31,310 nucleotides of DNA from a virus: positions 1 to 31,310 of the IMG/VR virus record IMGVR_UViG_3300027791_003652; one strand, given 5' to 3'. This document shows positions 4,409 through 25,712 of the stretch, piece after piece. A model generated the notes under the pieces. The model was not told the DNA's origin. It saw only the letters and a list, made by a program, of their open reading frames with translations, and ran no database searches. The stretch's first letter is position 1, and each line of letters starts with the position of its first letter. The position numbers were made by a program, and so were the translations under genes.

Positions 4409-4414
4409 TATTTA
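4409..4414 (-). promoter_or_regulatory. Late box fused to the stop codon of the H1-like gene
   Basis: TAAATA, whose first three bases are the TAA stop of the 4412-4600 gene, followed by 5 nt (ATAAT) and the GTG start of the retropepsin-like gene. Confidence 0.6.
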
Positions 4415-4607: not shown

Positions 4608-4613
4608 TATTTA
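4608..4613 (-). promoter_or_regulatory. Late box fused to the cassette's last stop codon
   Basis: TAAATA whose first three bases are the TAA stop of the 4611-5360 gene, followed by 7 nt (GATTATT) and the ATG of the H1-like gene. It marks the downstream edge of the glycan/radical SAM cassette. Confidence 0.5.
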
Positions 4614-8045: not shown

Positions 8046-8633
8046 TTATGTATATAATTTTTTAATATCCGATATTGTTTTACAATCGAGATTATGGTAA
8101 TCATATATGATGTTTCTATCATTTATAACACTCAAAGTTTTATCAATAAAATTATTTAAAGTTAAAAAATAAATTTTATTGTTCATATCTTTTTCTGGAA
8201 TTAAATCTAATCTAATTTTTTTCATTAATCCCTTTTTCCTTGTTTTATCATACACTCTAGGTATTCTTAAAATAATCCAATTATCATAATTATCTTGAAT
8301 ATATTTTTCCATTAATAACTTACTGTAACAATAAATGTTATTCGGAGCTTCAACCCCTTTTGTACTGGCAAAAATAAATTTAGCATTCGATTGTTTTGCA
8401 AGTTGTAACATATTAATTGTACCATTTATAATTACATCTACAACTCTATTACTATCTTTAAAATCAAAATCATCACTTGGCCCAGCAAAATGAAATATTT
8501 TATTTATATGATTATACTCTTTATATAATAAAACATCACCGTAATCATAATTTATACCTTTTATTTGGTTTTTTAAGTTACTTGCTAAAAACCCCTTTTC
8601 AGCTCCTGTAAATATATTAATCGATTTTGTCAT
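8046..8633 (-). CDS. NAD-dependent epimerase/dehydratase (extended SDR)
   Basis: Short extended-type SDR, probably a nucleotide-sugar epimerase, dehydratase or reductase. A glycine-rich dinucleotide loop T-G10-A-E-K-G14-F-L-A-S sits at the N-terminus, followed by an I-F-H-F-A-G segment, the catalytic S90/T91 and the Y101-x-x-x-K105 pair. The start is set at the ATG at 8633, because the open frame to 8702 adds 23 residues with no family match and lies inside the upstream gene. Even so, there is a 17-bp overlap with the radical SAM gene. At 195 residues it is much shorter than typical epimerases (300+), and the substrate-binding C-terminal part is reduced. Confidence 0.8.
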   Translation of the reverse strand: MTKSINIFTGAEKGFLASNLKNQIKGINYDYGDVLLYKEYNHINKIFHFAGPSDDFDFKDSNRVVDVIINGTINMLQLAKQSNAKFIFASTKGVEAPNNIYCYSKLLMEKYIQDNYDNWIILRIPRVYDKTRKKGLMKKIRLDLIPEKDMNNKIYFLTLNNFIDKTLSVINDRNIIYDYHNLDCKTISDIKKLYT

Positions 8634-9669
8634 ATTTAGGATTAGTTTTAGAGAATAAAAACATGGTATCACATGAACACTGAGTAAGGGGACATTTAAC
8701 ACATTTAGTTAGATGTTTTTTATTAAGTTTTGTTATAGGTACAACTTCATTAGTACATGAATTTTTTATAGTACCGTCCATATTAATAGTGTACATTAAT
8801 GATTTACAACTCCAACCTTTAAATCTATTAAGCTTATATTTATTAATGTCAGCTTCTGATAATATATATTGTCTTTCTTCATCATCAATATATTTGATAT
8901 TGGTTGTTATTTCATTAGCATGTTCATTTAAATATAATGTTGCATTTTTAATACCTACACCTTTACCGTAATTTAATTTTTCCTGCTCCACCGGGTTAAT
9001 GTAATCATGAAAATATTTCCAAAAATCATTTGTATAATTTGGGTCCCAACCCCCTACCGGGCCGGTACCAACACTTTGCAAAAAGTTAAGACTAATAAAC
9101 ACATTATTTTTTTTAAATTTATCAATAAGATCTTTTGTTTGCTTCCAATGTTTTTGATCATCTGGTAGATTTATATTTGAAAATATACTTATATATTCTA
9201 AATTATTATTTAAATCTATAACTTTTTGAATATATTTATTTCCACAATATTCAGGGTGATGAGATGCTTCTATAGTCAGTTTACTATTTTCTTTAACATC
9301 TAACTTTTTATAAAAATCGTAAGGTTTTGCTAAATTAGTAATTAAATCAACTTGTATACAATATTTATCCTTAACTGCTTCTGAGATAATATTTTCAATA
9401 TCCGGGTGTAAAGTCGGTTCACCACCAAGAATTTCAATTGCATATGGAGTTTTAACCATTAACTTTAAAAATTTAATAGTGTTTTTCCATGCTTTAATAA
9501 AATGAGGTTTTTTCTTAAATGTGTTAAGATTAAAATTCATTGCACTGCAATAACTGCACCTATACTGACAAATATCAATAAGATTCCATGAAAACGTAAT
9601 TAAATTATAATCTTTATCACCGGCTTCTTTAACATTATTAATATTTAAATTATCTAAATTTTTTACCAT
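8617..9669 (-). CDS. Radical SAM enzyme A, C-terminal Cys cluster
   Basis: Radical SAM protein: C34-x3-C38-x2-C41 binds the [4Fe-4S] cluster that cleaves SAM, and L-G-G-E-P-T (81-86) binds the SAM amino group. The C-terminal part carries G-W-S-C288, C305 and C323-x2-C326-P-L-T-Q-C331-S-C333-D, suggesting a SPASM/twitch-like domain with an auxiliary cluster. It is a close paralog of the gene at 19322-20239: both begin A-G-x-K-D-Y-N-L-x-T-F-S-W-x-L-I-D-x-C, and both have the C-P-L-T-Q-C-x-C-D tail. It overlaps the transketolase C-half by 7 bp. The reaction is unknown; given the neighbours a sugar or glycan precursor is the likeliest substrate, which is inference. Confidence 0.88.
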   Translation of the reverse strand: MVKNLDNLNINNVKEAGDKDYNLITFSWNLIDICQYRCSYCSAMNFNLNTFKKKPHFIKAWKNTIKFLKLMVKTPYAIEILGGEPTLHPDIENIISEAVKDKYCIQVDLITNLAKPYDFYKKLDVKENSKLTIEASHHPEYCGNKYIQKVIDLNNNLEYISIFSNINLPDDQKHWKQTKDLIDKFKKNNVFISLNFLQSVGTGPVGGWDPNYTNDFWKYFHDYINPVEQEKLNYGKGVGIKNATLYLNEHANEITTNIKYIDDEERQYILSEADINKYKLNRFKGWSCKSLMYTINMDGTIKNSCTNEVVPITKLNKKHLTKCVKCPLTQCSCDTMFLFSKTNPKYDKID

Positions 9670-10139
9670 TTACAGTTATCCCAACCTAATCTTATAAAAT
9701 TTGTTTTATTATCTTTAATAGATTCTGTTAAAGTGTTAAGAAATTCTGAACGTGTTGTAGGTTCATGACAATTAATATTGAGAGCATTCATTAGTTTATA
9801 ATCATCATCAGGTAAATGACCTATACCACATCTATTATAACAACCGTTTGCACCGGCATTAACTAACGTTACATTTTTACCAAAATTAACCACACTAAAT
9901 TTTAATTGTTCATAAGCACGTTGGTAAACAAAACCTGCTACCCCGTAAATAATTACCTTTTTACCTTGACTAGCTAACCCTCCAGCAACGTTTACCATAT
10001 TAGTTTCACCAATACCAAAATTTAAACATCGTTCAGGGTATTTAGTTTTAAATTTTTCGAAGCTCCACATATCAGCATGTAAAAAATATAGATCTGGGTT
10101 GTTGTATTTTGATAAAAATATATCTAATGTATTTCTCAT
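9663..10139 (-). CDS. Transketolase-like protein, pyrimidine-binding half
   Basis: Matches the central (pyrimidine-binding) domain of transketolase/DXS-type thiamine diphosphate enzymes. F-G-I-G-E45-x-N-M-V-x-x-A-x-G-L-A (41-56) contains the Glu that activates the cofactor, followed by A-x-E-Q-L and G-I-G-H-L-P-D-D-D. The start is the ATG at 10139, 1 nt after the upstream stop; the longer frame to 10193 would add 18 residues overlapping the U32-like gene. The 158-residue protein ends right after this domain, so the third, C-terminal transketolase domain is absent. It should pair with the N-terminal half at 11012-11704 in an alpha2beta2-type enzyme moving or adding a two-carbon unit. Role inferred. 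Confidence 0.8.
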   Translation of the reverse strand: MRNTLDIFLSKYNNPDLYFLHADMWSFEKFKTKYPERCLNFGIGETNMVNVAGGLASQGKKVIIYGVAGFVYQRAYEQLKFSVVNFGKNVTLVNAGANGCYNRCGIGHLPDDDYKLMNALNINCHEPTTRSEFLNTLTESIKDNKTNFIRLGWDNCKW

Positions 10140-10140
10140 T

Positions 10141-11022
10141 TTATTTATAAACGTCTTTAAGATAAATATTAAGTTCACTTGAAAAATCTTCAAATGTCAT
10201 TTCACGACCAGTAATTTTGAAGTTATTTACACCTTGTTTCATAAGTTGCTTTATTTGTGATATTTTTAAATCCATACCATAAGAATCTCCTAATTTTTCA
10301 ATAACCTTTTTTTGACCAATATCTGGATCAAATCCTTCCGGTTTTTTATATGTAGATCTTTCAGATAACCAACACTCTTCTACTTCATACATCTTCTTTT
10401 TACCGGCATCAACCCACGGATTTTTATAAAGTATATTTTGTTTAGCTATTTCTTCAAAATGTATACCGTAATACGGGCAATTATAAATACATGTATCATT
10501 AAGCATAATTTCATATTTATTTTGGTCTAAATCTATAAATCTTTTATCAAATATATGTTCGCATCTGGGTACAATATAATCATATTGTTTTTCAAGTTGT
10601 TTATATAAATTAAAATCATCATCTGTCATTGGAACGTTTATCTTACCAAAGCTTGTAATTGATCTTGTATGCTTATATAAGGGATATTTTTCTTTGATAT
10701 AATTAAGTAATGTTTCGTTTGCAGTAATTATAACATTACCCTCTCTATGAAATTTTTTAAGTAATTTATTACCTATTTTATCGGTAATATCAATAACTGG
10801 ATTGGTAAATGTAAGTGCAATTGAAATATTATTACGGTAATAAAAATTTATAACTTTATCATCATAAGATATATCTCTATTTATACGACCACCATTCCAT
10901 GGGCAATTATTAATACCATCATAAACCGTTATATCAAAATTTTTAATTATATCTTTATGTTTAAAAAAATATAATCTTAGTTCTTTACTTTTACTAAATG
11001 CGCCTGCTATATTAAATCTCAT
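10141..11022 (-). CDS. Peptidase U32-like TIM-barrel protein (putative)
   Basis: Probably a U32-family-like (UbiU/UbiV-like) barrel protein. The N-terminal M-R-F-N-I-A start, an early N-C-P-W-N-G-G-R segment, the middle T-N-P and S-I-T-S-F-G segments, and late conserved Cys (C-I-Y-N-C-P-Y-Y-G-I-H, then E-C-W) recall environmental U32-like proteins whose Cys bind an iron-sulfur cluster. The C-terminal Q-G-V-N-N-F-K-I-T-G-R-E segment fits the end of that barrel. It lies between the two transketolase halves, overlaps the N-half by 11 bp and ends 1 bp before the C-half, so all three are probably made together. The ATG at 11022 is preferred over the in-frame GTG at 11025. Family call moderate, reaction unknown. 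Confidence 0.5.
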   Translation of the reverse strand: MRFNIAGAFSKSKELRLYFFKHKDIIKNFDITVYDGINNCPWNGGRINRDISYDDKVINFYYRNNISIALTFTNPVIDITDKIGNKLLKKFHREGNVIITANETLLNYIKEKYPLYKHTRSITSFGKINVPMTDDDFNLYKQLEKQYDYIVPRCEHIFDKRFIDLDQNKYEIMLNDTCIYNCPYYGIHFEEIAKQNILYKNPWVDAGKKKMYEVEECWLSERSTYKKPEGFDPDIGQKKVIEKLGDSYGMDLKISQIKQLMKQGVNNFKITGREMTFEDFSSELNIYLKDVYK

Positions 11023-11704
11023 CACTATCGATAGTTTTATAATGCCACTTTACAGGGTCATCTTCCATATATTTTACACCTTTACCCTTTTTTGTTAAAA
11101 AATTAATTAATATAGGTTTTTTAATTTTATCTAAATTACTAAGCTTTTTTAAAATAGTATTTTTACAGTGACCATTTACTGTTATTACATGCCAATTATA
11201 ATTTTGGGCTAACTTTATAACAGGTTCAACAGTTAAAACATTATTTGTATTACCTGTTACCTGATAATTGTTATTATCAATAGTTAATAAAATATTATTA
11301 ATACAATTATGACCGATATATTGTATAGCTTCTAAGGTACTACCCATTTGCAAAGTCGCGTCGGTTATATTTACCCAAACTCTTTTACCTTTATTTGATA
11401 ATGCTATACCGGAACCGACCCCTAATGCGTTACCCATTGTTTCCTCCCCATAATCAACAAAATCGATTTCATTATGCTTAACCCCTACAGAAAGATTATT
11501 TATATCTTTCAATAAACCCATTTTTTTCCATAATATATAATATGTTTGAGAGCCAAACGGTTTACCTAATACTATTTTATCTCTATATGGTACTATTATT
11601 TTGTTTTCAAATAAAAATTCTACATAGGTCGACATTGATAAAGCTGATGGTATATGGGTCAACCCTTTATCCCGTGAATAAGTAACTATTTCATTACTAA
11701 TCAT
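11012..11704 (-). CDS. Transketolase-like protein, thiamine-diphosphate-binding N-half
   Basis: N-terminal half of a transketolase-type enzyme. It has H17 in L-T-H-I-P-S-A-L-S, the diphosphate/metal site T114-D115-A-T-L-Q-M-G followed by A-I-Q-Y-I-G and T-I-D-N-N-N-Y (about 141-147), and a final T-K-K-G-K-G-x(11)-W-H-Y segment. The canonical G-D-G of this site is T-D-A here: the metal-binding Asp and the later Asn are kept, but both glycines are gone, so activity is likely but not certain. At 230 residues it is slightly short for a half-enzyme. It starts 1 bp after the upstream gene. It acts with the 9663-10139 protein; substrates unknown. Confidence 0.83.
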   Translation of the reverse strand: MISNEIVTYSRDKGLTHIPSALSMSTYVEFLFENKIIVPYRDKIVLGKPFGSQTYYILWKKMGLLKDINNLSVGVKHNEIDFVDYGEETMGNALGVGSGIALSNKGKRVWVNITDATLQMGSTLEAIQYIGHNCINNILLTIDNNNYQVTGNTNNVLTVEPVIKLAQNYNWHVITVNGHCKNTILKKLSNLDKIKKPILINFLTKKGKGVKYMEDDPVKWHYKTIDSDEI

Positions 11705-11705
11705 T

Positions 11706-12341
11706 TTATTTTTTTTTGTTTAAATAAAGAAACTTAATTTTTTCGTCATCGGTAAGCTCTTCTTTAATTCTTTTTTGTTCTAACTTTGTAGTATTAAAGA
11801 ATTTTTCTTTCCATCTTGGAGCTTTAACCTTTTCTTTAAAAAACTTAAACACATGGTCGATTACACTATTAGATACATCCTCTGTTTGATGATTTCGAGC
11901 TAAATAAAATAATAACGCTAATTTTTTAAATGAATCATTAGAATATTTACTCGGTTCAAAGGAATGTATATTACTTTCAAAAACTATATTTGTTAAAATT
12001 ATATTATTTACAGTCGCATGATGCCAGTGGTTTATAAACGCAAATTGCTCTTTAGTAAATTTATATCTACCATCTGATTTAATAAATGATTTCACCCAAT
12101 CTGGTGATAATAATCTAGTATGTTCATATGTTTCATAAGATTTTGAAATAATATTTCTTTTTAAATAATTTCCAAGTTCTTCTGACATTGCATCATTTAA
12201 TTTTAAATAAAAATTAAACGTTTTAATTATATTTAAAATACCTTTTTCTTCCGGAAAGTATTCAATTAAAAAATTATCTACCATCTTTAATAGAAGTAAT
12301 GATAGATCACTACCGGATATATTTTCAATACAAGTTGACAT
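11706..12341 (-). CDS. Hypothetical helical protein, 211 aa
   Basis: Not recognised. Predicted mostly helical and cytoplasmic. Visible features are an acidic amphipathic N-terminus, a conserved-looking W-H-H-A-T-V-N-N segment near residues 110-117, another R-N-H-Q-T-E segment near 148-153 and a Lys-rich C-terminus. The His-rich segments could bind a metal, but no known motif fits. It is the first gene after a 54-bp gap and precedes the transketolase half by 1 bp, so it may start a sub-operon; a near-match late box (TAAATT, then 5 nt) lies before its ATG. Possibly a partner or scaffold of the transketolase complex, a guess from position. Confidence 0.6.
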   Translation of the reverse strand: MSTCIENISGSDLSLLLLKMVDNFLIEYFPEEKGILNIIKTFNFYLKLNDAMSEELGNYLKRNIISKSYETYEHTRLLSPDWVKSFIKSDGRYKFTKEQFAFINHWHHATVNNIILTNIVFESNIHSFEPSKYSNDSFKKLALLFYLARNHQTEDVSNSVIDHVFKFFKEKVKAPRWKEKFFNTTKLEQKRIKEELTDDEKIKFLYLNKKK

Positions 12342-12346
12342 ATATT

Positions 12347-12352
12347 AATTTA
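12347..12352 (-). promoter_or_regulatory. Imperfect late box before the 11706-12341 gene
   Basis: TAAATT (one mismatch to TAAATA) on the minus strand, then AATAT and the ATG at 12341, the same N5 spacing as the virion genes. It could be an internal promoter of the cassette. The 54-bp gap 12342-12395 holds nothing else clear. Confidence 0.3.
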
Positions 12353-12395
12353 ATATTTTTTTTTGAAAAAACAAGCATCACATTTTTAATAATAT

Positions 12396-13343
12396 TCATT
12401 TAAATTTTTCTACATAGAATTCACCTTTACAGCAATCCCATTTACATTTAGTATAGTTATTAACTTTAAAATTGAATATTTTTTCATTTTTTAATAAATT
12501 ACCAGAAGGTAGTGTTAATGTATTTGCACAACACATAAAATAATTACCATCTCCGTTTATTATAATATATTTTTTACCTACGGAACATGTCCAGCCTTTA
12601 AATGATATACCCTCACTATAAAAATCATTAGTATTATATATTTTTACATCACCGTTAGAATGAGTTACTTCATAATTTTCATGAAACATATGTTCTTTAT
12701 ATTCTTCCATTAAATCTTTATAATAATTAGTTGAATTATCATAATCAATAAACCCGTGTATTAATTCCACTCTTTTAGAATAATCTTTATTTAAAAGTTT
12801 TTTACTATTTTTTATAATGTTATCTACTTGTGTTTTATCATGCTCAAGCATAATATCAATTTTACCTAAAACATTATTTTCATGTAGTATATCTATTTTT
12901 TTTAATAACTCATCAAAATCTTTTACAAATTTATCATGGTATGATACATTAATTTCTAATTTATTATGCTTAAATCTATCTATTAAAGACTTTATATATT
13001 TTTCACCTACCGATAAATTAGTTTGAAATTCTACTATTATATTTTTATTAAAAGAAAAAATATATTCAATAATGTCTCTGCATTTAGGGTGTGTTGTAGG
13101 TTCACCACCATGAAAATAAATTCTATAATTTTTATGTTTAATGTTTTTTAAAGCTATAGATATCGTTTTTTTAATATCTTCAAAATTATAATGATGACCA
13201 TACTTCCAGTGACAATAACTGCAATCATAATTACAATAGTCTGTAATTCTTAATTGAAATTCATAAAAATCTTCACCTTCAAAATCATGAATACCTTGAA
13301 GACCGTTAGCTTTTAAAATTTTATAATCTTTAGGGTATATCAT
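12396..13343 (-). CDS. Radical SAM enzyme B
   Basis: Radical SAM protein with C37-x3-C41-x2-C44 (followed by H-W) and H-G-G-E-P-T (78-83). The C-terminal region has K-G-W-T-C253-S-V-G-K-K, then F-M-C271-C272-A-N and K-C300-K-W-D-C304-C305, a SPASM-like set of Cys likely to hold an auxiliary cluster. Its closest relatives here are enzymes D (14166-15110) and E (15676-16692), which share the C-K-x2-K-C-type ending. A 35-bp gap separates it from enzyme C upstream; the gap holds no clear promoter. 315 residues, complete. Substrate unknown. Confidence 0.88.
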   Translation of the reverse strand: MIYPKDYKILKANGLQGIHDFEGEDFYEFQLRITDYCNYDCSYCHWKYGHHYNFEDIKKTISIALKNIKHKNYRIYFHGGEPTTHPKCRDIIEYIFSFNKNIIVEFQTNLSVGEKYIKSLIDRFKHNKLEINVSYHDKFVKDFDELLKKIDILHENNVLGKIDIMLEHDKTQVDNIIKNSKKLLNKDYSKRVELIHGFIDYDNSTNYYKDLMEEYKEHMFHENYEVTHSNGDVKIYNTNDFYSEGISFKGWTCSVGKKYIIINGDGNYFMCCANTLTLPSGNLLKNEKIFNFKVNNYTKCKWDCCKGEFYVEKFK

Positions 13344-13378
13344 ACATTAATACTAATTATATATGTGTTCCCACTTTT

Positions 13379-14161
13379 TTAAAGGTATTGTTTTACTTTT
13401 TTCTGTATGTTATTATGTATACCGCAAGTTAACTTACAGCTGTCACAATTAGTTTTATCAAATTTTGTAATACTTTTAACAAGTTTACTATTTATAGTAT
13501 ATTTAGGTGTATAATCGTTATTTTTAAATTTATTAGGCAATAAATTACAACAAGGATATATATAACCGTTTAAATCAAATAAAATAGGTAATTCATCTGA
13601 ACCGGATCGGCATTTAAATTTATTTACATTTTTAAACGTTTTATTTATTTTCTTCCACGGCTTTTCAAATAGTGTTGATATATTATTTTCTTTACAAAAA
13701 GTTAGTATATCTTTTTTTTCTTCTCCCGTAATATAATCAAATAAAATTGTTTTATATACAGCCGTGCAATTTTTCATTAATGTTAAATGCTTTAAAGCTC
13801 TTTGCAAGTTACCATTTATACGATATTTTTTATAAGTTTCCTGGTAAAACCCATCTATTGAAAAATTTATAACATCTAATTTATTCATATATTTATCAAT
13901 TTTAACCACAACCGGTAGTTGACCATTTGTATCCATTTGTATTAAAATGTCTTTTAATTTTATAAATTTAACAATTTCAATAATTTTTGTATGATATGTA
14001 GGGTCGCCGCACTTACCACGTAATACAACCTTGGATGGTTTATATTTGTTAATTATACGTCTCAATAATGTTAAAGGCATTTCTCGTTTTGATCTACCTT
14101 CGAGAAAACATCCAGGGCATTGCAAGCTACAATTTTCAGTCAATTCTATATCAATAACCAT
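13379..14161 (-). CDS. Radical SAM enzyme C (SPASM-type, compact)
   Basis: Radical SAM protein starting almost at the cluster motif: C11-x3-C15-x2-C18, with C-G-D-P-T (51-55) in the place of GGEPT. The barrel is short (260 aa total). C-terminal Cys (K-C-R-S-G, Y-P-C-C-N, N-C-D-S-C-K-L-T-C-G) fit a SPASM domain. It differs from the other eight in the barrel sequence (E-L-T-E-N-C-S-L-Q-C-P-G-C) and looks more like general SPASM oxidoreductases such as those maturing peptides or dehydrogenating substrates. It ends 35 bp before enzyme B and starts 4 bp after enzyme D's stop. Substrate unknown. Confidence 0.86.
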   Translation of the reverse strand: MVIDIELTENCSLQCPGCFLEGRSKREMPLTLLRRIINKYKPSKVVLRGKCGDPTYHTKIIEIVKFIKLKDILIQMDTNGQLPVVVKIDKYMNKLDVINFSIDGFYQETYKKYRINGNLQRALKHLTLMKNCTAVYKTILFDYITGEEKKDILTFCKENNISTLFEKPWKKINKTFKNVNKFKCRSGSDELPILFDLNGYIYPCCNLLPNKFKNNDYTPKYTINSKLVKSITKFDKTNCDSCKLTCGIHNNIQKKVKQYL

Positions 14162-14165
14162 AATA

Positions 14166-15110
14166 CTATTGCTTTACTCTATCAACCCATAAATCCCAAT
14201 TACATTTTGTATATTTACATATACAACTAGTTGATGTTATCATTTTTATAAACCTATCATAATTAGTAAAAATATTTTGTTTTACGGTATCATAAAAATA
14301 ACTACTCGTGCATTGGTTAAAATTGCCTTTATTATCGATAATAACCATTTTACTACCTGCATTGCATTTCCATCCATTAAAATTTAAATTCATTTGATAT
14401 AATTCCGATGCATCTTTTATACTTATATCTCCATTATCAATACTTATTTCATAATCTTCAATATCTTTACATTTTTCGATACAATCTTTAAAACTATCAT
14501 ATAGTAGTTTTGCATCTGAATATTGTTTTTTAAAATCTGGTAGATTCATATAACCAAACGTTGGAGTTATAACGGGTAATAGATTTTTATCTTCCAACAT
14601 TTTAAAAAAAATTTTTTGTTTCTTTATATTTTTTTCTTCAAACATAAAATCGATCCTATGTAAAATGTTATAATTGTTTAGCAATAATATATTTTTTAGT
14701 ACTTTAGTTATCGATTTTATATTATTGTAATGTATTGAAACAGAAACATTAATATTATATTTTTTAATTTGTTCAATAATAATAGGGTTTAATTCCCCAT
14801 GCGTTTGCAATTCAACGGTCATTGATTTTGGTTTATTTTTAAAAATATATTCAATTAACTCTTTAAAATATGTACATAAAGTTGGTTCACCACCAAATAA
14901 AAATAAATTTGATTTTTTTCTTATTTTAAACAAATTATCTAGTATCTGTTTTTGTATTTCAAAACTATTTTCTTTATATTTTAAATCTCTCCAAGCGCAG
15001 TAATCACAATTATAGTTACAGGTACCTAGAAGGTAGTATATTATTTCAAGTGGTTTATCATAATTACCACCACATGGTTTGAAATGTGTTATATTGTTCG
15101 TTATATCCAT
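14166..15110 (-). CDS. Radical SAM enzyme D
   Basis: Radical SAM protein with C31-x3-C35-x2-C38 (A-W follows) and F-G-G-E-P-T (72-77). The C-terminal half has N-G-W-K-C-N-A-G-S-K, F-N-Q-C and a terminal C-I-C-K-Y-T-K-C-N-W segment, the SPASM-like layout shared with enzymes B and E. It overlaps the 3' end of the unknown gene upstream by 10 bp, giving strong coupling. 314 residues; no sign of damage. Probably acts on the same class of substrate as B and E, perhaps at successive steps; this is inference from paralogy and adjacency. Confidence 0.88.
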   Translation of the reverse strand: MDITNNITHFKPCGGNYDKPLEIIYYLLGTCNYNCDYCAWRDLKYKENSFEIQKQILDNLFKIRKKSNLFLFGGEPTLCTYFKELIEYIFKNKPKSMTVELQTHGELNPIIIEQIKKYNINVSVSIHYNNIKSITKVLKNILLLNNYNILHRIDFMFEEKNIKKQKIFFKMLEDKNLLPVITPTFGYMNLPDFKKQYSDAKLLYDSFKDCIEKCKDIEDYEISIDNGDISIKDASELYQMNLNFNGWKCNAGSKMVIIDNKGNFNQCTSSYFYDTVKQNIFTNYDRFIKMITSTSCICKYTKCNWDLWVDRVKQ

Positions 15111-15676
15111 ACGTCTTTATTATCAAATTCAATACGTTGTATATCGAGAGGATCTATACCAAAATTATTATAGTTTATAAAGAAAAATTGATTAGTATTT
15201 CGATTAATGATAAGATCATTAACCCTTAAATTTGTAACGACATTAATGTAAAACTTTATATTTTCAGGGTAATCTATATGTTTTTTAAGTTCTTTTAATA
15301 TTAAATCATTATCAATTTTTTGTTGTTTATCATGTAATTCTTTTACCCTTAAAATGTATGGGTGATTTTTATTTAATTCCTTTTCTTTTTTAAAAAAAAA
15401 GTTAATAAGTTTTGACTTAGAAGTGCTAAAATCATATTCACTATAAAATTTAAATTTACATGTTGTGTTGTGTGGGAATTCAAAATATAAATAATCCTGA
15501 GTTATTGAATGATATTTTAGTAAAAAATTAGCTTTTGTATGATTATAATAATTTTCAAAATATGCTTTTTTGTAATCATACTTACCTTGTAATAATTTAC
15601 ATTTAAGAAATAGTTTACCTTTACGATAAAAAATAGTATTATTACCTATTTTATATATATCTATATCTAATTTCAT
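15101..15676 (-). CDS. Hypothetical protein between radical SAM genes, 191 aa
   Basis: Not recognised. A Lys/Tyr/Phe/Asn-rich soluble protein. The N-terminal third looks like beta strands (alternating hydrophobic and charged residues to about residue 85), the middle is helical with a charged E-x-K-E-L segment, and the C-terminus V-N-D-L-I-I-N-R...F-F-F-I-N-Y-N-N-F-G-I-D is faintly like the D-x3-N-I-I...I-D segment of small-molecule kinases. The similarity is too weak to call. It is coupled on both sides to radical SAM genes (10-bp overlap with D, 1-bp overlap with E), so it could be a kinase-like or accessory protein for their substrate. Confidence 0.6.
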   Translation of the reverse strand: MKLDIDIYKIGNNTIFYRKGKLFLKCKLLQGKYDYKKAYFENYYNHTKANFLLKYHSITQDYLYFEFPHNTTCKFKFYSEYDFSTSKSKLINFFFKKEKELNKNHPYILRVKELHDKQQKIDNDLILKELKKHIDYPENIKFYINVVTNLRVNDLIINRNTNQFFFINYNNFGIDPLDIQRIEFDNKDVWI

Positions 15677-16692
15677 TATATTTTTCTTTCTATACTATTT
15701 TTTTTATTTAGTTTAGATATTTTAGAAACCTTTCTTCCTATATTTATTTTCTTACTTTCTATATTGAAAAAACATTTACTAAATTTGCATATTTTTGGTT
15801 TTATATCCTCAAAATATAATTTATAATCATTTTTTTCATTTATATTAAAAACTGGTTTAGTGTCTGAAAATAAATGGCTCTCACAAAAAAAACAACTACC
15901 ATCCCAATCGATAACGATTCTATCTAAAGGAGCATTACAAAGATAACCTGTAAAGGTATTATCATTCGAAAGCCAGAAACTAAATCTAGATCTTTTTTGA
16001 TCATCTACTGTTATTGTATCATCAAAAAAGAAACTATGTTTTTTTAATTCATTTACATCTTCATTTTCTTTGATATATGATACTTCAGCTATATCACTTT
16101 CTAATGGTTGTGAAACTCTACTATCAATTAAAGGACATATTTCGCAATGTTTATCACCAAGTATTTTTGTTGCAAATTTAAAATCCGGCATAACATTTTT
16201 TTTACGGTTATACATAAGAGATATCATATTAAGCATGCCATATTTTTTTAATATCAGTGCTTTTTTAATAAACGTGTATATATTTGTTTGCGTATTATGG
16301 TAACTTCCACATACCTTTATATAGTGATTTTTGTCTGAATATTTTTTACAAAATTTATCCCACCAACTATTTTTCAATGATAGATTCGATTGTATATCAA
16401 TTTCAATTTCTACGTCACAATCTACTCCTCCTATAAGACCATCTATATAATCAAAGAGATATGGGTATATTGTCGGTTCACCACCGTATATATACAAGTA
16501 TATTGGTTTGTTAAAATGTTTATATGCTGTATTTATAAGTTCACATATATGCTTTACATTATGTACTACAAACGGTACTTTATTGTAATGAAGATCAGTG
16601 CAATAATAACAATTATAGTTACATTTTGATGTTAATCTAACCTCAATAGTGAATATATCTTGGTCTTGACCGACTGTTTTATAGTTATGCAT
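15676..16692 (-). CDS. Radical SAM enzyme E
   Basis: Radical SAM protein with C24-x3-C28-x2-C31 and Y-G-G-E-P-T (69-74). The C-terminal part has T-G-Y-L-C-N-A-P, C-F-F-C-E and I-C-K-F-S-K-C-F-F, again the SPASM-like pattern of enzymes B and D. A basic, Lys/Arg/Ile-rich tail of about 25 residues follows and is missing from the others. There is an extra Cys pair in the middle (E-I-C-P-L, about residue 184). It overlaps enzyme F by 8 bp. 338 residues, intact. Substrate unknown. Confidence 0.87.
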   Translation of the reverse strand: MHNYKTVGQDQDIFTIEVRLTSKCNYNCYYCTDLHYNKVPFVVHNVKHICELINTAYKHFNKPIYLYIYGGEPTIYPYLFDYIDGLIGGVDCDVEIEIDIQSNLSLKNSWWDKFCKKYSDKNHYIKVCGSYHNTQTNIYTFIKKALILKKYGMLNMISLMYNRKKNVMPDFKFATKILGDKHCEICPLIDSRVSQPLESDIAEVSYIKENEDVNELKKHSFFFDDTITVDDQKRSRFSFWLSNDNTFTGYLCNAPLDRIVIDWDGSCFFCESHLFSDTKPVFNINEKNDYKLYFEDIKPKICKFSKCFFNIESKKINIGRKVSKISKLNKKNSIERKI

Positions 16693-17653
16693 TTACACCT
16701 GCCTTCTCTTTATATATTTTTAACAGACCATCGCAGTTACAACTGGTATGTGGGCATGATACAGGACAAATTTTACCAATATTTCTAAAAAAGAAAGGAT
16801 CTTTTAATAAATCAGATCTTTGTTCAAAACAGACCCGGTGCACTATACCAGTATATGATATTTCATAATTATTATTCCAGCAATCCCAATCTTTAAAATT
16901 GGTAAATTTATTTTCAAAAATATTATAGTCATTATACATTTTTTTATCACCGTTTTTATTTTCAAAAGTAAAATAATCTGGGTAATCTTTAAATCTTTCA
17001 AATTCTTTATAAAAATCATTACCATAATCTTGAAGCTTATGTACATCTCCATCAGCATATAAAAAATGAGGGTGAATATTAATTCTATCGCCATATTTTT
17101 CTAATTGGTCAACAAAATCATGAGTTTTTTGCCAAAGTTTTTTATTATAGTGAAGCATGACGTTAACCTTTACTTTAAAACCTCTATTAACTGCGATATC
17201 AATATTTTTTAAAAGAATTTCAAACCCTTTTTTATATTTAAATTCGTATTCAGAATGAAAACTAAAAAGAAAATATAGTCTATCATCGTATTGGTGGTTT
17301 TGAAAGATGCTACTTTTAGAAGAACCGTTAGTAGTTATATATAACCTACCATCTGGATGTTTTTTAACCACTTCTAAACACTTATCTATTAGTTCAGGGT
17401 AGTGTGGGTGTATTGTAGGTTCACCACCCAGTAACCCAAGAAATACCGGTAATTTAGCTCTACCTAAACTTTTTATAACATGCTTTTGTTTTTTCCAATC
17501 ATCTATTTTACCCCATTCATCCCCGTAGTCTTTCATTGCATAACAATAGGAACACTTAAATTGACACTGTGTACTTACATCCCAGTGCACATAAAGCCTT
17601 TGTATCTTATGCTTTACATCATATTGCTTTATGTAGTTAGTACTTTTTTTCAT
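16685..17653 (-). CDS. Radical SAM enzyme F
   Basis: Radical SAM protein with C30-x3-C34-x2-C37 (Y-A-M follows) and L-G-G-E-P-T (75-80). The C-terminal Cys-rich segment C296-P-V-S-C300-P-H-T-S-C305-N-C307-D-G resembles the C-P-L-T-Q-C-x-C-D tail of enzymes A and H, with W-D-C and V-C-F upstream of it, so A, F and H form one subgroup. The frame overlaps GT2 by ATGA and enzyme E by 8 bp. 322 residues, intact. A common substrate class with A and H is inferred from the shared tail. Confidence 0.88.
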   Translation of the reverse strand: MKKSTNYIKQYDVKHKIQRLYVHWDVSTQCQFKCSYCYAMKDYGDEWGKIDDWKKQKHVIKSLGRAKLPVFLGLLGGEPTIHPHYPELIDKCLEVVKKHPDGRLYITTNGSSKSSIFQNHQYDDRLYFLFSFHSEYEFKYKKGFEILLKNIDIAVNRGFKVKVNVMLHYNKKLWQKTHDFVDQLEKYGDRINIHPHFLYADGDVHKLQDYGNDFYKEFERFKDYPDYFTFENKNGDKKMYNDYNIFENKFTNFKDWDCWNNNYEISYTGIVHRVCFEQRSDLLKDPFFFRNIGKICPVSCPHTSCNCDGLLKIYKEKAGVNA

Positions 17654-18303
17654 TCAAATCTTTTGTCTTTATTAAAAATTCTGAAGCTTATATTATCTTT
17701 ACCATCTGTTGTTTGTACCCATAATGGTTTGGAAATATAAAAAATTGTTTCAAGTTCTAAAGATTTAAAAATTTTATAGTCATTGAAAATATTATCTTCT
17801 GTAGGCCAATATTTAATACCGTTTTTTTTAAAAACTATTTGACTAAATTGAAAGTCTCTTGGCTCATATATATTTAAAAATTCAGATAAATTATTAATTT
17901 TACTTAAAGACTTAAATTTATTAAAAAATCTTTTATAGTAAGATGCTAAATTTCTTTTATAGGTTAAAATATCTTTAGACAGATAGTTTAAAAAATTTAT
18001 ATCATAGTTAAAATTTAAAAACTTAAAAAAATTAGACTTTATATAATCATCATCTTCAAGGTAAAATATATATTCTCCTTTACTCTTTTCATATAAAAAT
18101 TTATATGTATCGGTCAATTTTTTATTCTTTTCATAGTAATAATAAATATTAACTTTATCGTTATATATTTCTGTTATATCATTACTATCATTATTTACTA
18201 AAATTTCAATATCATAATTAGGTAAATTATTCAATACACTATTTATACATCTTTCAAATAAAAGAGGCCTGTTATGGGTTAATATTAATATTGATAGTTT
18301 CAT
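17650..18303 (-). CDS. GT2-type glycosyltransferase
   Basis: Family 2 glycosyltransferase (GT-A fold). The N-terminus M-K-L-S-I-L-I-L-T-H-N-R-P is the typical nucleotide-binding start, a V-N-N-D-S-N-D segment (36-42) follows, and G-E-Y-I-F-Y-L-E-D84-D85-D86-Y (76-87) is the DXD-like metal site. At 217 residues it holds only the catalytic domain; there are no transmembrane segments. It lies between radical SAM genes with ATGA overlaps on both sides (18300-18303 and 17650-17653), so the glycosyl transfer is tied to the radical SAM steps. Sugar not predictable. Confidence 0.85.
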   Translation of the reverse strand: MKLSILILTHNRPLLFERCINSVLNNLPNYDIEILVNNDSNDITEIYNDKVNIYYYYEKNKKLTDTYKFLYEKSKGEYIFYLEDDDYIKSNFFKFLNFNYDINFLNYLSKDILTYKRNLASYYKRFFNKFKSLSKINNLSEFLNIYEPRDFQFSQIVFKKNGIKYWPTEDNIFNDYKIFKSLELETIFYISKPLWVQTTDGKDNISFRIFNKDKRFE

Positions 18304-19325
18304 ATTTTAACCTTTTTAAAATCTAACCCGTCAAAGCATGCATTTAATAAACATATTTCACATTTATTTAAATAACTTTTAAAATTTAATTCACTTAACT
18401 TCATTTGTTTTATATTTTTATAATTATAATCATTACATCTATAAACATATAAATTATGGTCTATCACAATATTTTTTTTACCAGCAGAACATTTCATATA
18501 TTTAAATTTTTTATGAATATTATTACCTTTAACATCAGAATAATTCAAAGTACTGTCTCCGTTAATTAAAAAATTCCAACCTTTTTCAAAATAATTTCTT
18601 AATTCTGGGTAATATTTCATCCAATAGCGATATTCTAAACTTTTACCGCAATCATTTCCAATAAGATATTTATCTTTCTTTAATTCTTCATAACCTTTAA
18701 TAGATTTTAATGCTAAATTTTCAATTTCAGTGAACTTCATTACTAGTTTTTTAGGGTATTTTTCAATTATTGCGTAAAGCTCTTTAAGCATTTTTTCTTT
18801 TTTTGGTATTTCTGTACTAAAAAAACAATAACCTAAGCTATTATAACGATTACATATATCCATTTTTTCGATATACAGTTCTACAGGCTGTTTATCGATA
18901 TGGTAGCTATTACATATATTAATTATATGATTAGATTTTTTTATTTTATTTACTTTCTTTAAAAACGTTTCTAGTCGTCTCTTTGATAAACTAAGATTAG
19001 TATGGGTTTGTAAAAATAATTCTTTTTTTGGAAACATTTCAATTAACTTGTAGTTTAAATATTCCCAATGTTTACTTAAAGTTGGTTCGCCACCATAAAA
19101 ATAAAAAAATATTTTCTTTTTATCTTGAGGTATCTCTTTGAGTTTTTGCAGTACATAGTCGCATTGTTCTTTTGTCCAAGTTTTAGTATTATTACTATAC
19201 TCATTACAAAACCAACATTTATGGTTACATCTAAAACTAGGTTTTAAAGTAATCTTTAAATCATAATCTGGCCATTCACCTGTTTCAATAATTTCAAAAC
19301 TTTTAATATTTTTAAAATTATTCAT
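18300..19325 (-). CDS. Radical SAM enzyme G
   Basis: Radical SAM protein with C33-x3-C37-x2-C40 (C-N-H-K-C-W-F-C) and Y-G-G-E-P-T (77-82). The C-terminal region has M-K-C-S-A-G-K-K, Y-R-C-N and K-C-E-I-C-L-L-N-A-C-F-D-G, a SPASM-like arrangement intermediate between the A/F/H and B/D/E groups. It is coupled by ATGA overlaps on both sides (enzyme H and GT2). At 341 residues it is one of the longest of the set. Substrate unknown. Confidence 0.87.
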   Translation of the reverse strand: MNNFKNIKSFEIIETGEWPDYDLKITLKPSFRCNHKCWFCNEYSNNTKTWTKEQCDYVLQKLKEIPQDKKKIFFYFYGGEPTLSKHWEYLNYKLIEMFPKKELFLQTHTNLSLSKRRLETFLKKVNKIKKSNHIINICNSYHIDKQPVELYIEKMDICNRYNSLGYCFFSTEIPKKEKMLKELYAIIEKYPKKLVMKFTEIENLALKSIKGYEELKKDKYLIGNDCGKSLEYRYWMKYYPELRNYFEKGWNFLINGDSTLNYSDVKGNNIHKKFKYMKCSAGKKNIVIDHNLYVYRCNDYNYKNIKQMKLSELNFKSYLNKCEICLLNACFDGLDFKKVKI

Positions 19326-20239
19326 ACTTTAGTTTTTTCATAATTCCATTGTATATCGCAACCGCATTGGGTTAATGGACATTCAACACATTTTTCTTTA
19401 CTTATAAAAGACAGAGCTTCACCAGTACACGCATTATATATAGCACCAAAATGATTTATTTTATATCTTAAAGGTTTACATTTCCAACCTTTGAAGTTAT
19501 AAAAATTATTATCATATATATCATGTTTTGTTAAACTATAATTATTTTTTTCAGTTTCGAAGTTATATCTATTATTATCTCTTTCAGTTAAAGGTTTTAT
19601 TTTTTTAAAAAAGTTTTTTTCATAATTTACTTTATAGCCGCATTCAGAAGTTAAAAACGATACGGTAAATTCAATTTTTTCATTTGTAAGGATATTTATT
19701 AACTCAATTATTTTACTATAAAATTTAGGATTATCGTGTACCATAACAATAGGTATAAATTTTGTATTTTTAAATTTACTAATATCTATAATTTTGTTTA
19801 GCAGCTTATCATTGTAATAATCCATATGTATAGATGGACATATTAAAAGTTTATCCATTTCAGGTTTATCAAACTTTTTAAAATATTCGTAAGATTTTTT
19901 TAAATTTGTTATTAAGCTGATCTCTCTACTATTTTTAAAAGAGCAAAGAGTTTCAATTATTTCATAAATATCTGGATGTAGAGTAGGTTCACCTCCTAAT
20001 ATATCTACATCAAACTTATCTTTATTTTTTATTTTTAATAATTTAAGAACGTTTTTATATGATTTTTTTTGAATATCATTTTTAAAAAAGGTAGATTTAG
20101 GTCTATGTATATCTGAACCATATCCTTCACCGCAATATTTACATGCTTGGTTACATACGTCTATCAAATACCATGAAAAAGTTTTTAAATTATAATCTTT
20201 TACACCAGCTTTTATTATTTCTTCATTTTGATATTTCAT
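19322..20239 (-). CDS. Radical SAM enzyme H (close paralog of A)
   Basis: Radical SAM protein with C29-x3-C33-x2-C36 and L-G-G-E-P-T-L-H-P-D (81-90), at the same distance from the start as in enzyme A. The C-terminus has G-W-K-C254, C271 and C284-V-E-C287-P-L-T-Q-C292-G-C294-D. The shared N-terminal A-G-x-K-D-Y-N-L-x-T-F-S-W segment and identical tail make A and H likely products of a duplication, now about 9.6 kb apart. 305 residues. It overlaps the upstream GT-B-like gene by 17 bp. Substrate unknown. Confidence 0.88.
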   Translation of the reverse strand: MKYQNEEIIKAGVKDYNLKTFSWYLIDVCNQACKYCGEGYGSDIHRPKSTFFKNDIQKKSYKNVLKLLKIKNKDKFDVDILGGEPTLHPDIYEIIETLCSFKNSREISLITNLKKSYEYFKKFDKPEMDKLLICPSIHMDYYNDKLLNKIIDISKFKNTKFIPIVMVHDNPKFYSKIIELINILTNEKIEFTVSFLTSECGYKVNYEKNFFKKIKPLTERDNNRYNFETEKNNYSLTKHDIYDNNFYNFKGWKCKPLRYKINHFGAIYNACTGEALSFISKEKCVECPLTQCGCDIQWNYEKTKV

Positions 20240-21194
20240 TTCGTATTATATCTACAATTTTATCGTTATTTTTTAAGATAATACTATTAAAATCGTTTTC
20301 TATATCTAATTTTCTATATTTTAACCCAGTATCTACGTCTAAATAGTTTTTATCTATATTATGGTATATAATATCTTTATTATAGTACTTACACTCGGCT
20401 ATAAATCTTGGACTACAGTCAAAACAACCTAATTCTTGTTTAGTCACCGAATAAGTTGGGGTATATATGTAAGTATCAAACTTTTCAAATATATTATCTA
20501 AAGGCATAGCAGGGAAAGTTACATTTTTTATATTTTTAAATTGTTCCTTGTATAATTCTGGCTGATTAGTTAAAATTATATAATTTTTAAACTTATACTG
20601 CATAACTACATCAAGTAAATAATTACTACACAGTTTTCTACAGTTTGTAGTTACATATAACAGTGCAGTTTCAGTTTTTACCTTTTTAATATTATTATAA
20701 ATGTTAAACTTTATTTTTTTCTTATAATCTATAGCTATTTCATTATCTTTATCATTATAAACCCTTTGATCTTGTAGTAAAGTTATATTTTTATAAGGTA
20801 AATTATAGTGGTAATCTTTATTAGAACATCTAAATGAAAATATATTATGAAAAGATAAAACTATACCGTCCCTTAACGAGGTTCTAGTAAACCCTCCATC
20901 GACAAATAATATATTTTTACCTGATACAAACTTAGGCCGATTACAAAAAATAGTATTACTTTTAATTTTATTAATTATATCATTTTTTATATTATATTTT
21001 GATTTAATTGCTTTTTCTATTGTATTCCAATCCATATCTTCGCATATTAATATACCAATTTTCATATACCGGCTTAATACCAAGTAATATTCTAATATTT
21101 CATATAAATGACCAGATATTCCGTGATTATTATCATTATTCCATGTCATTGATAAAAATAAATCATAACTTTTATCTAATTTTAAAAATCTCAT
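20223..21194 (-). CDS. Putative GT-B-like glycosyltransferase
   Basis: Probable glycosyltransferase, not assigned to a family. The N-terminal half has a G-I-S-G-H-L-Y-E-I-L-E-Y-Y segment (about 25-37) like the acceptor-side start of GT-B enzymes. The C-terminal half has D-T-Y-I-Y-T-P-T, then D-C-S-P-R-F-I-A-E-C-K-Y-Y-N-K-D-I-I-Y, the kind of conserved loop-helix that holds the sugar nucleotide in GT-B donors. There are no membrane segments. It overlaps radical SAM I by ATGA and H by 17 bp. An alternative is a non-catalytic sugar-binding protein. 323 residues. Confidence 0.5.
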   Translation of the reverse strand: MRFLKLDKSYDLFLSMTWNNDNNHGISGHLYEILEYYLVLSRYMKIGILICEDMDWNTIEKAIKSKYNIKNDIINKIKSNTIFCNRPKFVSGKNILFVDGGFTRTSLRDGIVLSFHNIFSFRCSNKDYHYNLPYKNITLLQDQRVYNDKDNEIAIDYKKKIKFNIYNNIKKVKTETALLYVTTNCRKLCSNYLLDVVMQYKFKNYIILTNQPELYKEQFKNIKNVTFPAMPLDNIFEKFDTYIYTPTYSVTKQELGCFDCSPRFIAECKYYNKDIIYHNIDKNYLDVDTGLKYRKLDIENDFNSIILKNNDKIVDIIRNEISK

Positions 21195-22219
21195 GAGTAA
21201 AAATCTTTTCTATAATGATTAACATCTCGTATTTTATCACCAGGTTCGGGATAAACTTCCATATCTAATTGTTTTTCAATACCATCACAAATATAAAAAT
21301 ATTTACACTTAAAACAGGCCAAAGATTTCTTATAATCAGTGAGTCTATCATGTCTAGCTTTAGCATATCCCAATTCTATTTTTTGATTATGTGTATATGT
21401 TTCGGTTACATCAATATCATAGTCATATATTTCTTTATTCCAATCGTATACATCATACACATGTTGATATTGGTTACATACATATTTTTCATAACCTTTC
21501 ATAAAGCAATAAGGTGTATATCTAACGTTAATATATTTTACATCATTAACTATTAAATCTATACATCTTTTTATATTATCGGTTAGTTTATTATAATCAT
21601 CTATAGGTTCAAACGTTTTATTATCATCCCAGTAGTTTAAAGTAAGAAAATTTACTTGAAAAGGTTTAATTTTTTTAATAATATCAGCATAAGCTACTAA
21701 CCCTGAGTAGTTTTTCTGATAAACTGTACAGTTTATTCTAACTCGTATATCATGTTTATTGCAAAGGTCTATTGCTTTATTAATTTTCTTCCAACCATTC
21801 TTTCTACCTACTATATCATCATGAACTTCTTCATTATAACCATGTAAACTAAATAAAATTTCCTTTAACCCATGTTTTTTTGATTTTAATAAAAATTTTT
21901 CATTAGAAAATACTGAACCATTACTTAAACAGCTTATATTTTTAAATTTACCATTACAATAATCTAATATTTTAAACCAATCTTTATGTATGGAACTTTC
22001 TCCACCTGATAAGTCTACTTCATCTATACCATAAGAGTGTAAAATATCTATACGCTCTTTAATAGTATCATATGATGTTTTCTGATCCAGTTTATCTAGA
22101 TAATAGCAAAACTCACAGTGATAATTACAATGAAACCCGGTATCTAACTTTGCTCTATTGTTTCTTTTAGTGGTATAATCAACATTAAATCTATTGATAC
22201 TAATTTTATTAATATCCAT
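21191..22219 (-). CDS. Radical SAM enzyme I
   Basis: Radical SAM protein with C31-x3-C35-x2-C38 and D-L-S-G-G-E-S (69-75), closer to classical MoaA/SPASM-type proteins than the G-G-E-P-T group (S-N-G-S after the second strand; F-S-L-H-G-Y in mid-barrel). A C-terminal C302-F-K-C305-K-Y-F-Y-I-C311-D-G segment is a short Cys cluster, less elaborate than in A-H. It is the first gene of the cassette, 12 bp after the stop of a late gene; only a weak TAAAAT lies before its ATG at 22219, so it is probably transcribed from the late promoter of the gene upstream. 342 residues, intact. Confidence 0.88.
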   Translation of the reverse strand: MDINKISINRFNVDYTTKRNNRAKLDTGFHCNYHCEFCYYLDKLDQKTSYDTIKERIDILHSYGIDEVDLSGGESSIHKDWFKILDYCNGKFKNISCLSNGSVFSNEKFLLKSKKHGLKEILFSLHGYNEEVHDDIVGRKNGWKKINKAIDLCNKHDIRVRINCTVYQKNYSGLVAYADIIKKIKPFQVNFLTLNYWDDNKTFEPIDDYNKLTDNIKRCIDLIVNDVKYINVRYTPYCFMKGYEKYVCNQYQHVYDVYDWNKEIYDYDIDVTETYTHNQKIELGYAKARHDRLTDYKKSLACFKCKYFYICDGIEKQLDMEVYPEPGDKIRDVNHYRKDFYS

Positions 22220-22231
22220 GGTAGCTTAATT

Positions 22232-23104
22232 TTATTGATTTGCTTTATCAAGAATTTCTTTTATTTTATCTATTACCTTAGTAATAACATAATTTGTATC
22301 TTTTATTTCAGATACTTCATCATAAATTTCTTGAAGTTCATTAAATGTCATTGTTTTAATTAAAGATAAGGCAGCATCTAAGGTATTATCACTAAAACTA
22401 TTAATGTCATCTTTAATACTACTAAATTCACCAGGTAATGGTAAGAGTAGCGGTGGATATGTATCAATTACATCAATTAAATTTTTACAATCACTTAAAT
22501 CTATTTCAGTGATTGTGTCGTTAAACATTTCTATAATAGAATTAATATCTTCAATATCTTCTTCATCATCAGCCTCATTTTTTATTTCATTTAGTTCGTT
22601 AACATTTTCATCAATTTTAACTTTTATTGTTTTTCTCCATACATTTTGTATATTATCAACATTAGAAATAGTATTTGCTTTTATTTCATAGTCTCTTACA
22701 GTAAATTCAAATTTTTTACATATATTAAATATATTTTTTTCAGAATTAACTAAATAAACTTCGTTTTTTAAATAATAATCTTCTAATTCATCTTTAGATA
22801 TGTATTCTAAACTACAATCATTTAAATCTGAATTTATAGTATCAATATAGCCTAAATTAATTTCTATATTATTATTATCGATACCATGGACTGTTATTTC
22901 TTCAATTTCACTAAAATATATATTTTCTATTTTTTTTGATAAAAGATTATATACTTTTATTTTATCAATTTTATCTGAGTTTTTTAATGTTATTTTACAA
23001 ACATCTTTTAAAGTAGTATACGGTTTACTAATTTCTTTAATTTTTAAAAAACATATATAATTAGACAGTTGTTCTATGGTATAATTTTTAGTGTCGTTAT
23101 CCAT
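22232..23104 (-). CDS. Hypothetical acidic protein, 290 aa
   Basis: Not recognised. Strongly acidic, rich in Asp, Glu, Ile and Asn, with a very acidic stretch near residues 172-187 (E-A-D-D-E-E-D-I-E-D), and otherwise a mix of beta (first 120 residues) and helical (last 80) sequence. No signal peptide or membrane segment. A TAAATA box 5 nt upstream of its ATG, fused to the previous stop codon, marks it as a late gene, and it lies next to virion-type proteins, so an assembly or structural role is likely. The glycan cassette starts 12 bp downstream of its stop. Confidence 0.65.
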   Translation of the reverse strand: MDNDTKNYTIEQLSNYICFLKIKEISKPYTTLKDVCKITLKNSDKIDKIKVYNLLSKKIENIYFSEIEEITVHGIDNNNIEINLGYIDTINSDLNDCSLEYISKDELEDYYLKNEVYLVNSEKNIFNICKKFEFTVRDYEIKANTISNVDNIQNVWRKTIKVKIDENVNELNEIKNEADDEEDIEDINSIIEMFNDTITEIDLSDCKNLIDVIDTYPPLLLPLPGEFSSIKDDINSFSDNTLDAALSLIKTMTFNELQEIYDEVSEIKDTNYVITKVIDKIKEILDKANQ

Positions 23105-23109
23105 TTACT

Positions 23110-23115
23110 TATTTA
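23110..23115 (-). promoter_or_regulatory. Late box fused to stop codon
   Basis: TAAATA whose first three bases are the TAA stop of the 23113-23823 gene, followed by AGTAA and the ATG of the 22232-23104 gene at 23104 (N5). Confidence 0.65.
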
Positions 23116-25704: not shown

Positions 25705-25712
25705 ACCAGTTT
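25685..25712. terminator. Hairpin over the convergent stop codons
   Basis: A perfect 10-bp inverted repeat, AAACTGGTTT (25685-25694) and AAACCAGTTT (25703-25712), with an 8-nt loop holds both stop codons of the two converging genes (25701-25704). The U tracts after it are weak on both strands (TTTCTTT on the minus side), so it may be a weak two-way terminator or an mRNA 3'-end protector. Confidence 0.55.

Follow-up and report, generated by a model that had tools for sequence, protein, structure and literature searches.

A likely exchangeable sugar-modification island with nine radical SAM genes in a contig of a T4-like phage

Related systems

Campylobacter phages CP220 and CPt10 were reported to encode 11 and 12 radical S-adenosylmethionine (rSAM) proteins, a content termed highly unusual, with five in an interchangeable module (PMC2853527). 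The reason for the dozen rSAM genes in these phages has been a standing question since 2010. The host-recognition cluster of pelagimyophages, which are T4-like marine phages, was described as a hypervariable tail-fibre island with glycosyltransferases that sits from VrlC to gp14 together with the fibres, and two of the genomes are set apart by added rSAM cassettes; no conserved core of rSAM, GT-B and transketolase genes is described in the parts of that report available to us (PMC7029224). Split transketolases were found amid glycosyltransferases in a hypervariable region of freshwater SAR11/Fonsibacter (PMC6811365). Here, IMG/VR virus record IMGVR_UViG_3300027791_003652 was analyzed over its full 31,310 bases (the window), which carries, at 8617-22219 on the minus strand, a block of nine rSAM genes (designated A to I from left to right) interwoven with sugar-handling genes. 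All cassette and edge genes described below between 4611 and 23823 lie on the minus strand.

An initial annotation of the window described phages with more than one or two rSAM genes as rare, which overlooked CP220 and CPt10 (PMC2853527). Searches with PF04055 returned 11 matches each in CPt10 and CP21. The Campylobacter group II phages CP220, CPt10 and CP21 (Firehammervirus) and the window group are alike in being T4-like and in having a homologous core and a swappable module: rSAM I (21191-22219) is 48% identical to CPt10 gp166, rSAM G (18300-19325) is 37% identical to gp086, the GT-B-fold glycosyltransferase at 20223-21194 is 28% identical to a CPt10 protein and is confined among named phages to 15 Campylobacter records, and the two transketolase halves (N half, 11012-11704; other half, 9663-10193) are 36% and 35% identical to their CPt10 homologues. 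CPt10 also has an epimerase, a PIG-L protein and a polysaccharide deacetylase. In the Campylobacter phages these parts are scattered round the genome, with one cluster that includes an amidinotransferase, whereas in the window they form one continuous block, and linkage to a tail fibre is a feature of several uncultivated relatives. Like the pelagimyophage cluster, the window group has glycosyltransferases in a hypervariable region, with an adjacent fibre in G008-G012; VrlC and gp14 were not located. The SAR11/Fonsibacter island is bacterial and, in the genes compared, has truncated transketolases beside glycosyltransferases and epimerases, as in the phage block. Campylobacter phages provide the known example of this kind of system, and no description of the contiguous, fibre-linked form or of the shared core was found in the literature searched.

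Our favored reading, at a probability of about 0.6, is that a T4-like phage carries the block as an exchangeable island for sugar modification. The question raised by the Campylobacter phages is narrowed by this comparison to a core (an anchor rSAM, the GT-B protein, a split transketolase, an epimerase and deacetylases) present in cultivated and uncultivated phages and tied to a tail-fibre operon in several relatives, from which concrete targets in laboratory phages follow. If the enzymes do act on sugars, the contigs compared would hold a large untapped set of glycan-editing rSAM enzymes, about 100 diverged sequences.

Conserved core and exchanged middle

rSAM I was used as the anchor gene. 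It was found in 16 IMG/VR contigs with 1 to 11 PF04055 matches apiece, and nine further contigs with 5 to 13 matches apiece were found with the GT-B protein, giving a common core in 25 uncultivated phage contigs with 1-13 rSAMs each. In the 17-record comparison, the GT-B partner was found in 17 of 17 records; both transketolase halves occurred together in all 12 records having either; and the epimerase, PIG-L and deacetylase genes were present in most. The core starts with rSAM I and the GT-B gene, at most two genes apart in most records, and continues through the GT2 glycosyltransferase and the two transketolase halves to a far edge made up of epimerase, PIG-L and deacetylase; the number and kind of rSAMs within it differ between records. 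The gene-order comparison proposed by the initial annotation was borne out in that synteny was present in other viral contigs.

When the relative designated G002 was aligned to the window, the flanks were 95-99% identical in nucleotide sequence, while most of 8.6-20.2 kb showed either zero nucleotide homology or short stretches of 67-74% identity. Because near-identical flanks enclose a largely non-homologous middle, the middle of the cassette has been exchanged. G002 also encodes, at 21310-23118 (L024:6310-8118), a 602-amino acid rSAM with a B12-binding domain, a class unlike the nine of the window.

Chance and a chimeric assembly were both ruled out. A separate 25-kb contig, IMGVR_UViG_3300009422_001976, carries the identical gene order with 98-100% protein identity to the window block, and IMG/VR contig 3300025652_009266 is largely syntenic with the window at 70-80% nucleotide identity.

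The nine rSAM genes

PF04055 searches of the window record matched nine genes, every one of them minus-strand and within 8617-22219, with E values from 3.5e-21 (rSAM I) to 3e-6 (rSAM E, 15676-16692). Eight of the nine are above the Pfam cut-off, one of them only when scored together with its neighbors in the frame, and rSAM E lies below it with an intact motif. The initial annotation of nine intact genes with CxxxCxxC, GGEP-like and C-terminal Cys motifs was upheld: the genes contain zero internal stops, C-x3-C-x2-C and C-terminal Cys clusters are present in every one, and GGEPT is present in seven, replaced by GGESS in rSAM I and by GKCGDPT in rSAM C (13379-14161). The Cys clusters suggest some auxiliary cluster; the label SPASM-type, which had also been applied, was not supported, as the Pfam SPASM domain was undetected in all nine at E 0.01.

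The remaining members are rSAM A (8617-9669; PF04055 E 2e-8), B (12396-13343; orthologues in G005 and G011), D (14166-15110), F (16685-17653; orthologues of 50-88% identity in five contigs) and H (19322-20239); E has orthologues in G004 and G005. rSAM G matches phrog_24890 (E 1.9e-56) and belongs to a 12-row clade. In a maximum likelihood tree of 99 rSAMs, rSAM I formed one fully supported clade (17 rows, support 100/100) with a single member per contig, once in each of the 16 related contigs and in CPt10. Most other window rSAMs paired with genes of other contigs and not with each other, and C and D had no close orthologue in the tree. Recent tandem duplication was ruled out for most, as the nearest tree neighbors of seven window rSAMs are in other phages, and the nine genes are anciently diverged. 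Orthologue pairs suitable for comparison were available for seven rSAMs (all but C and D); their ratio of nonsynonymous to synonymous substitution rates was 0.03-0.31, and those seven genes are therefore maintained by purifying selection.

Known identities were excluded using NCBIfam equivalogs (QueE, NrdG, MoaA, viperin and others), for which none of the nine proteins reached a curated cut-off. The best scores fell far short (NF033640, 39 vs 170; viperin, 59 vs 180; AlbA, 72 vs 850), so that the QueE, NrdG, MoaA and viperin identities were rejected, and the true QueE of the near relative G003 is a separate gene outside the cassette. The circumstances named beforehand as fatal to the initial annotation, QueE/NrdG membership or chimerism, did not occur. 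These scores also bear on the explanation given for CP220 and CPt10 in 2010, by which independent enzymes would aid host metabolism at low oxygen. Timms et al. tie rSAM enzymes to low oxygen (PMC2853527). Matches to known metabolic equivalogs all stay below the NCBIfam cut-offs, and a tight operon with sugar genes and exchange of modules suit independent helpers poorly, which makes this reading highly improbable.

rSAM H, the sole rSAM modeled, was predicted with AlphaFold2 (AF2; mean predicted local distance difference test, pLDDT, 84.7). The model has the rSAM barrel fold (Z 11-17 to many rSAM structures) and is of the MoaA/BlsE type, with BlsE (7vob) as the closest solved fold (Z 16.9, root mean square deviation (rmsd) 3.5, 257 aligned) and SkfB, MoaA, DesII and SuiB close behind. 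BlsE, a sugar-nucleoside decarboxylase, and DesII work on sugars, and SkfB and SuiB work on peptides. Because its near matches include enzymes of both kinds, the predicted fold favors a sugar substrate but does not prove it. BlsE, DesII, BtrN and SpeY, sugar rSAMs with solved structures, share the fold of rSAM H at about 8-17% sequence identity and are antibiotic-pathway enzymes with known substrates.

The same fold search, through the resemblance to SkfB, SuiB and EpeE, bears on a peptide- or protein-modifying role, in which the rSAMs would add cross-links, epimers or thioethers to a phage structural protein in the manner of ribosomally synthesized and post-translationally modified peptides (RiPPs). 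The C-terminal Cys clusters and weak matches to PapB/AlbA-type profiles point the same way. Such a role is judged unlikely: the constant partners of the rSAMs are sugar enzymes, a scan with Pfam models, and with these only, gave no match to a RiPP recognition element (PqqD-like), and no gap in the window block exceeds 54 bp. The prior conclusion that the block is not a classical RiPP locus was in agreement with this, since a precursor was not found and the intergenic gaps are too small to hold one; a distant precursor is possible.

A bacterial origin of the rSAM family was considered and rejected. Among the matches listed, the sole full-length one was L056 (NZIV01000084.1), and the others were generic domain matches. 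L056 is a short contig binned as Neomarinimicrobiota metagenome-assembled genome MED589; because its sequence is nearly identical to the phage cassette of G003 and the contig is short, it is probably a misbinned phage contig, or else a weak hint of the host.

Sugar-handling partners

The gene preceding rSAM H in coordinate-descending order, at 20223-21194, encodes the conserved partner of rSAM I. A PDB sequence search with its product returned nothing useful. An AF2 model (pLDDT 87.9) matched PimA (2gej; Z 16.1, rmsd 3.6, 271 aligned), and the match list was dominated by GT-B enzymes, which assigns the predicted fold. A second glycosyltransferase, of the GT2 type with a DDD motif (PF00535 E 6e-11), lies at 17650-18303. 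At the far side are a short NAD-dependent epimerase/dehydratase with YxxxK (8046-8702; PF01370 E 2.1e-6), a PIG-L-type de-N-acetylase with HPDD (6510-7157; PF02585 E 1.8e-21), a polysaccharide-deacetylase-like protein (5979-6509; PF01522 E 1.1e-4, just under the Pfam cut-off) and a DXD sugar transferase (5357-5989; PF04488 E 2.4e-15). The glycosyltransferase, epimerase and split transketolase were confirmed among the rSAM genes as the initial annotation described; the two deacetylase genes, at 5979-7157, fall a little beyond 8617-22219. The ATGA overlaps that it noted were also found: four junctions are 4-bp overlaps of the ATGA type, and at several others the overlap is 1-17 bp.

The products of 11012-11704 (PF00456 E 6.5e-11) and 9663-10193 (PF02779 E 9e-7) together constitute a putative split transketolase-like enzyme dependent on thiamine diphosphate (ThDP). 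The first, the ThDP-binding N half, retains the metal-site Asp and Asn (DATLQ...DNNN), with TDA in place of GDG, and the second, the pyrimidine-binding half, retains the catalytic Glu (GETNM). Between the halves, 10141-11025 encodes a 294-amino acid protein that has the motif VYDGIN.C.WNGGRIN and, in an alignment of four relatives, four invariant Cys. It occurs in 6 of the 17 records compared, with further matches in L163 and L168, has no relative in Pfam or NCBIfam and no significant one by PDB sequence search, and is possibly a metal-binding enzyme. A scan of genomes for a bacterial source of the gene was empty; its distant matches are unverified fecal "phage" contigs whose surrounding sequence is ordinary-looking bacterial. 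The block also contains a 211-amino acid protein (11706-12341) without a Pfam or NCBIfam match and a 191-amino acid protein (15101-15676) found in four related records.

Under the favored reading of a sugar-modification island, the fixed core (rSAM I and GT-B, GT2, the two-part ThDP enzyme, epimerase, PIG-L and second deacetylase) would build and attach sugars. The variable rSAM set would alter these sugars by hydrogen abstraction (dehydrogenation, epimerization, deoxygenation or C-C rearrangement), with the B12-binding rSAM of G002 perhaps adding methylation. Two-carbon transfer would fall to the ThDP pair, and the glycosyltransferases would place the finished sugar on a cytoplasmic acceptor. 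That the rSAMs act on sugars, how the steps are ordered and what receives the product are inferred. Several observations weigh against this scheme. No nucleotide-sugar pyrophosphorylase was recognized in the block; BlsE is only slightly ahead of the peptide maturases SkfB, SuiB and EpeE in the rSAM H fold search; among solved proteins, rSAM I is closest in sequence to the nucleotide enzyme viperin, and its top NCBIfam match, far under cut-off, is the peptide maturase AlbA; and the window itself has no adjacent tail-fibre gene.

Acceptor and tail-fibre linkage

Cassette proteins were scanned for at least three hydrophobic 19-residue segments, and no flippase-, polymerase- or initiating-transferase-like protein was found among 312 open reading frames (ORFs) of 13 cassettes. 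The same scan caught 4 of 16 proteins (Wzy, Wzx, WzxC and WcaJ) of the E. coli O16/colanic region. The cassette alone thus seems unable to flip or polymerize a surface glycan. The lack of flippase- or polymerase-like ORFs makes a cytoplasmic acceptor probable, either the phage's own fibre or lipid-linked glycan precursors of the host. In our view, the fibre (or the small proteins associated with it) is about as likely an acceptor as the host lipid-linked precursors.

In G008, G009, G010 and G012, an S74 long tail fibre, a homologue of the product of 23113-23823, a homologue of that of 22232-23104 and rSAM I follow one another on one strand, mostly with short spacers or overlaps; in G011, a 515-amino acid protein without a Pfam match replaces the first small protein. 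The S74 fibre is just upstream on the same strand in all five relatives (G008-G012), where PHROG tail-fibre matches were also obtained, and in G014 a 2296-amino acid tail-fibre-like protein lies at the opposite island edge. The 290-amino acid protein encoded at 22232-23104 precedes rSAM I in 13 records. Although the window and the two contigs closest to it have no fibre beside the cassette, they do have there this protein and the fast-evolving 236-amino acid protein encoded at 23113-23823; neither protein has a relative among named phages. They are 62-82% identical between the window and G002, compared with 92-100% for neighboring backbone genes, and in both closest relatives they diverge more than most neighboring backbone genes.

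This arrangement is what would be expected if the cassette decorated the tail fibre or the two companion proteins, altering host recognition or shielding the fibre. The conserved gene order, from which G011 differs only in the small protein, the fast divergence of the companions and the lack of membrane proteins all argue for such virion glycosylation. It is held tentatively, as the window lacks an adjacent fibre, the Campylobacter phages have their parts dispersed, and co-location could reflect only the joint exchange of host-range genes.

Remodeling of the host envelope, the outcome named in the initial annotation, is equally tentative. Sugars would be placed on the lipopolysaccharide (LPS) core or on undecaprenyl-linked O-units at the cytoplasmic face, and the changed receptor would exclude competing phages. 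LPS-core transferases need no phage flippase, and the glycosyltransferases, sugar enzymes and hypervariability of the cassette are in keeping with such a role. The pelagimyophage authors read the glycosyltransferases of their islands, including those with added rSAM cassettes, in this way (PMC7029224). Counting against it are the contrast between 0 of 312 multi-span ORFs in 13 records and 4 of 16 in the E. coli region, and an apparently lytic phage, for which the gain would be limited to the infection period. Of the surface-glycan pathway first proposed, a sugar or glycan pathway is the best-supported part, since in many phages the rSAMs are accompanied by the conserved GT-B and GT2 transferases, the deacetylases, an epimerase and the split transketolase; the envelope is one candidate target, as flippase-like ORFs are lacking and the position of the block behind a fibre in relatives fits virion decoration equally well.

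A more speculative extension, considered doubtful, is that a widespread lineage of T4-like phages, comprising the Campylobacter phages and uncultivated relatives, has a dedicated rSAM pathway for sugars not known elsewhere and attaches these to its own tail fibre as a variable glycan coat at the receptor-binding tip, with the rSAM set swapped like host-range cassettes.

Phage identity and neighboring genes

The genes beside the block encode PhoH, a QueD-like PTPS, FolE2 and a phrog_455/cytidylyltransferase protein, and G+C per gene in the block (about 0.19-0.29) is below that of most flanking genes. The flanks are about 86-89% identical in nucleotide sequence to those of G003 (185 kb). Because G003 encodes a T4-type major capsid protein, for which cyanophage proteins at about 33% identity were the best among the matches listed, the window contig is assigned by sequence to a deep lineage of T4-like phages.

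QueD and FolE2 (950-1603, 2919-3971) flank the cassette, and G003 adds QueE, beside PhoH, and QueC (65950-66642, 101552-102199). Together these make a full preQ0 gene set, which suggests DNA modified with 7-deazaguanine, as reported for Campylobacter phages, which carry 2′-deoxy-7-amido-7-deazaguanosine (dADG) (PMC6884629). The same genes and the dADG report speak for a cassette that elaborates 7-deazaguanine bases in phage DNA, which is nonetheless very unlikely: G003 encodes QueE and QueC away from the cassette, which itself is variable, and PIG-L and polysaccharide deacetylases would have no evident role. DNA modification, peptide modification and a metabolic boost are all less likely than a virion or envelope acceptor.

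The island edge conserved in the nearest relatives is marked by a 252-amino acid protein (4611-5369) and, also kept in relatives, a 62-amino acid histone H1-like Hc1 protein (4412-4600; PF07432, E 1.8e-17). On the other side, 25701-27698 encodes a 665-amino acid fusion of a phrog_455 domain, frequent in cyanophages, with a cytidylyltransferase-like domain, and the product of 30544-30978 matches PHROG homing-endonuclease families.

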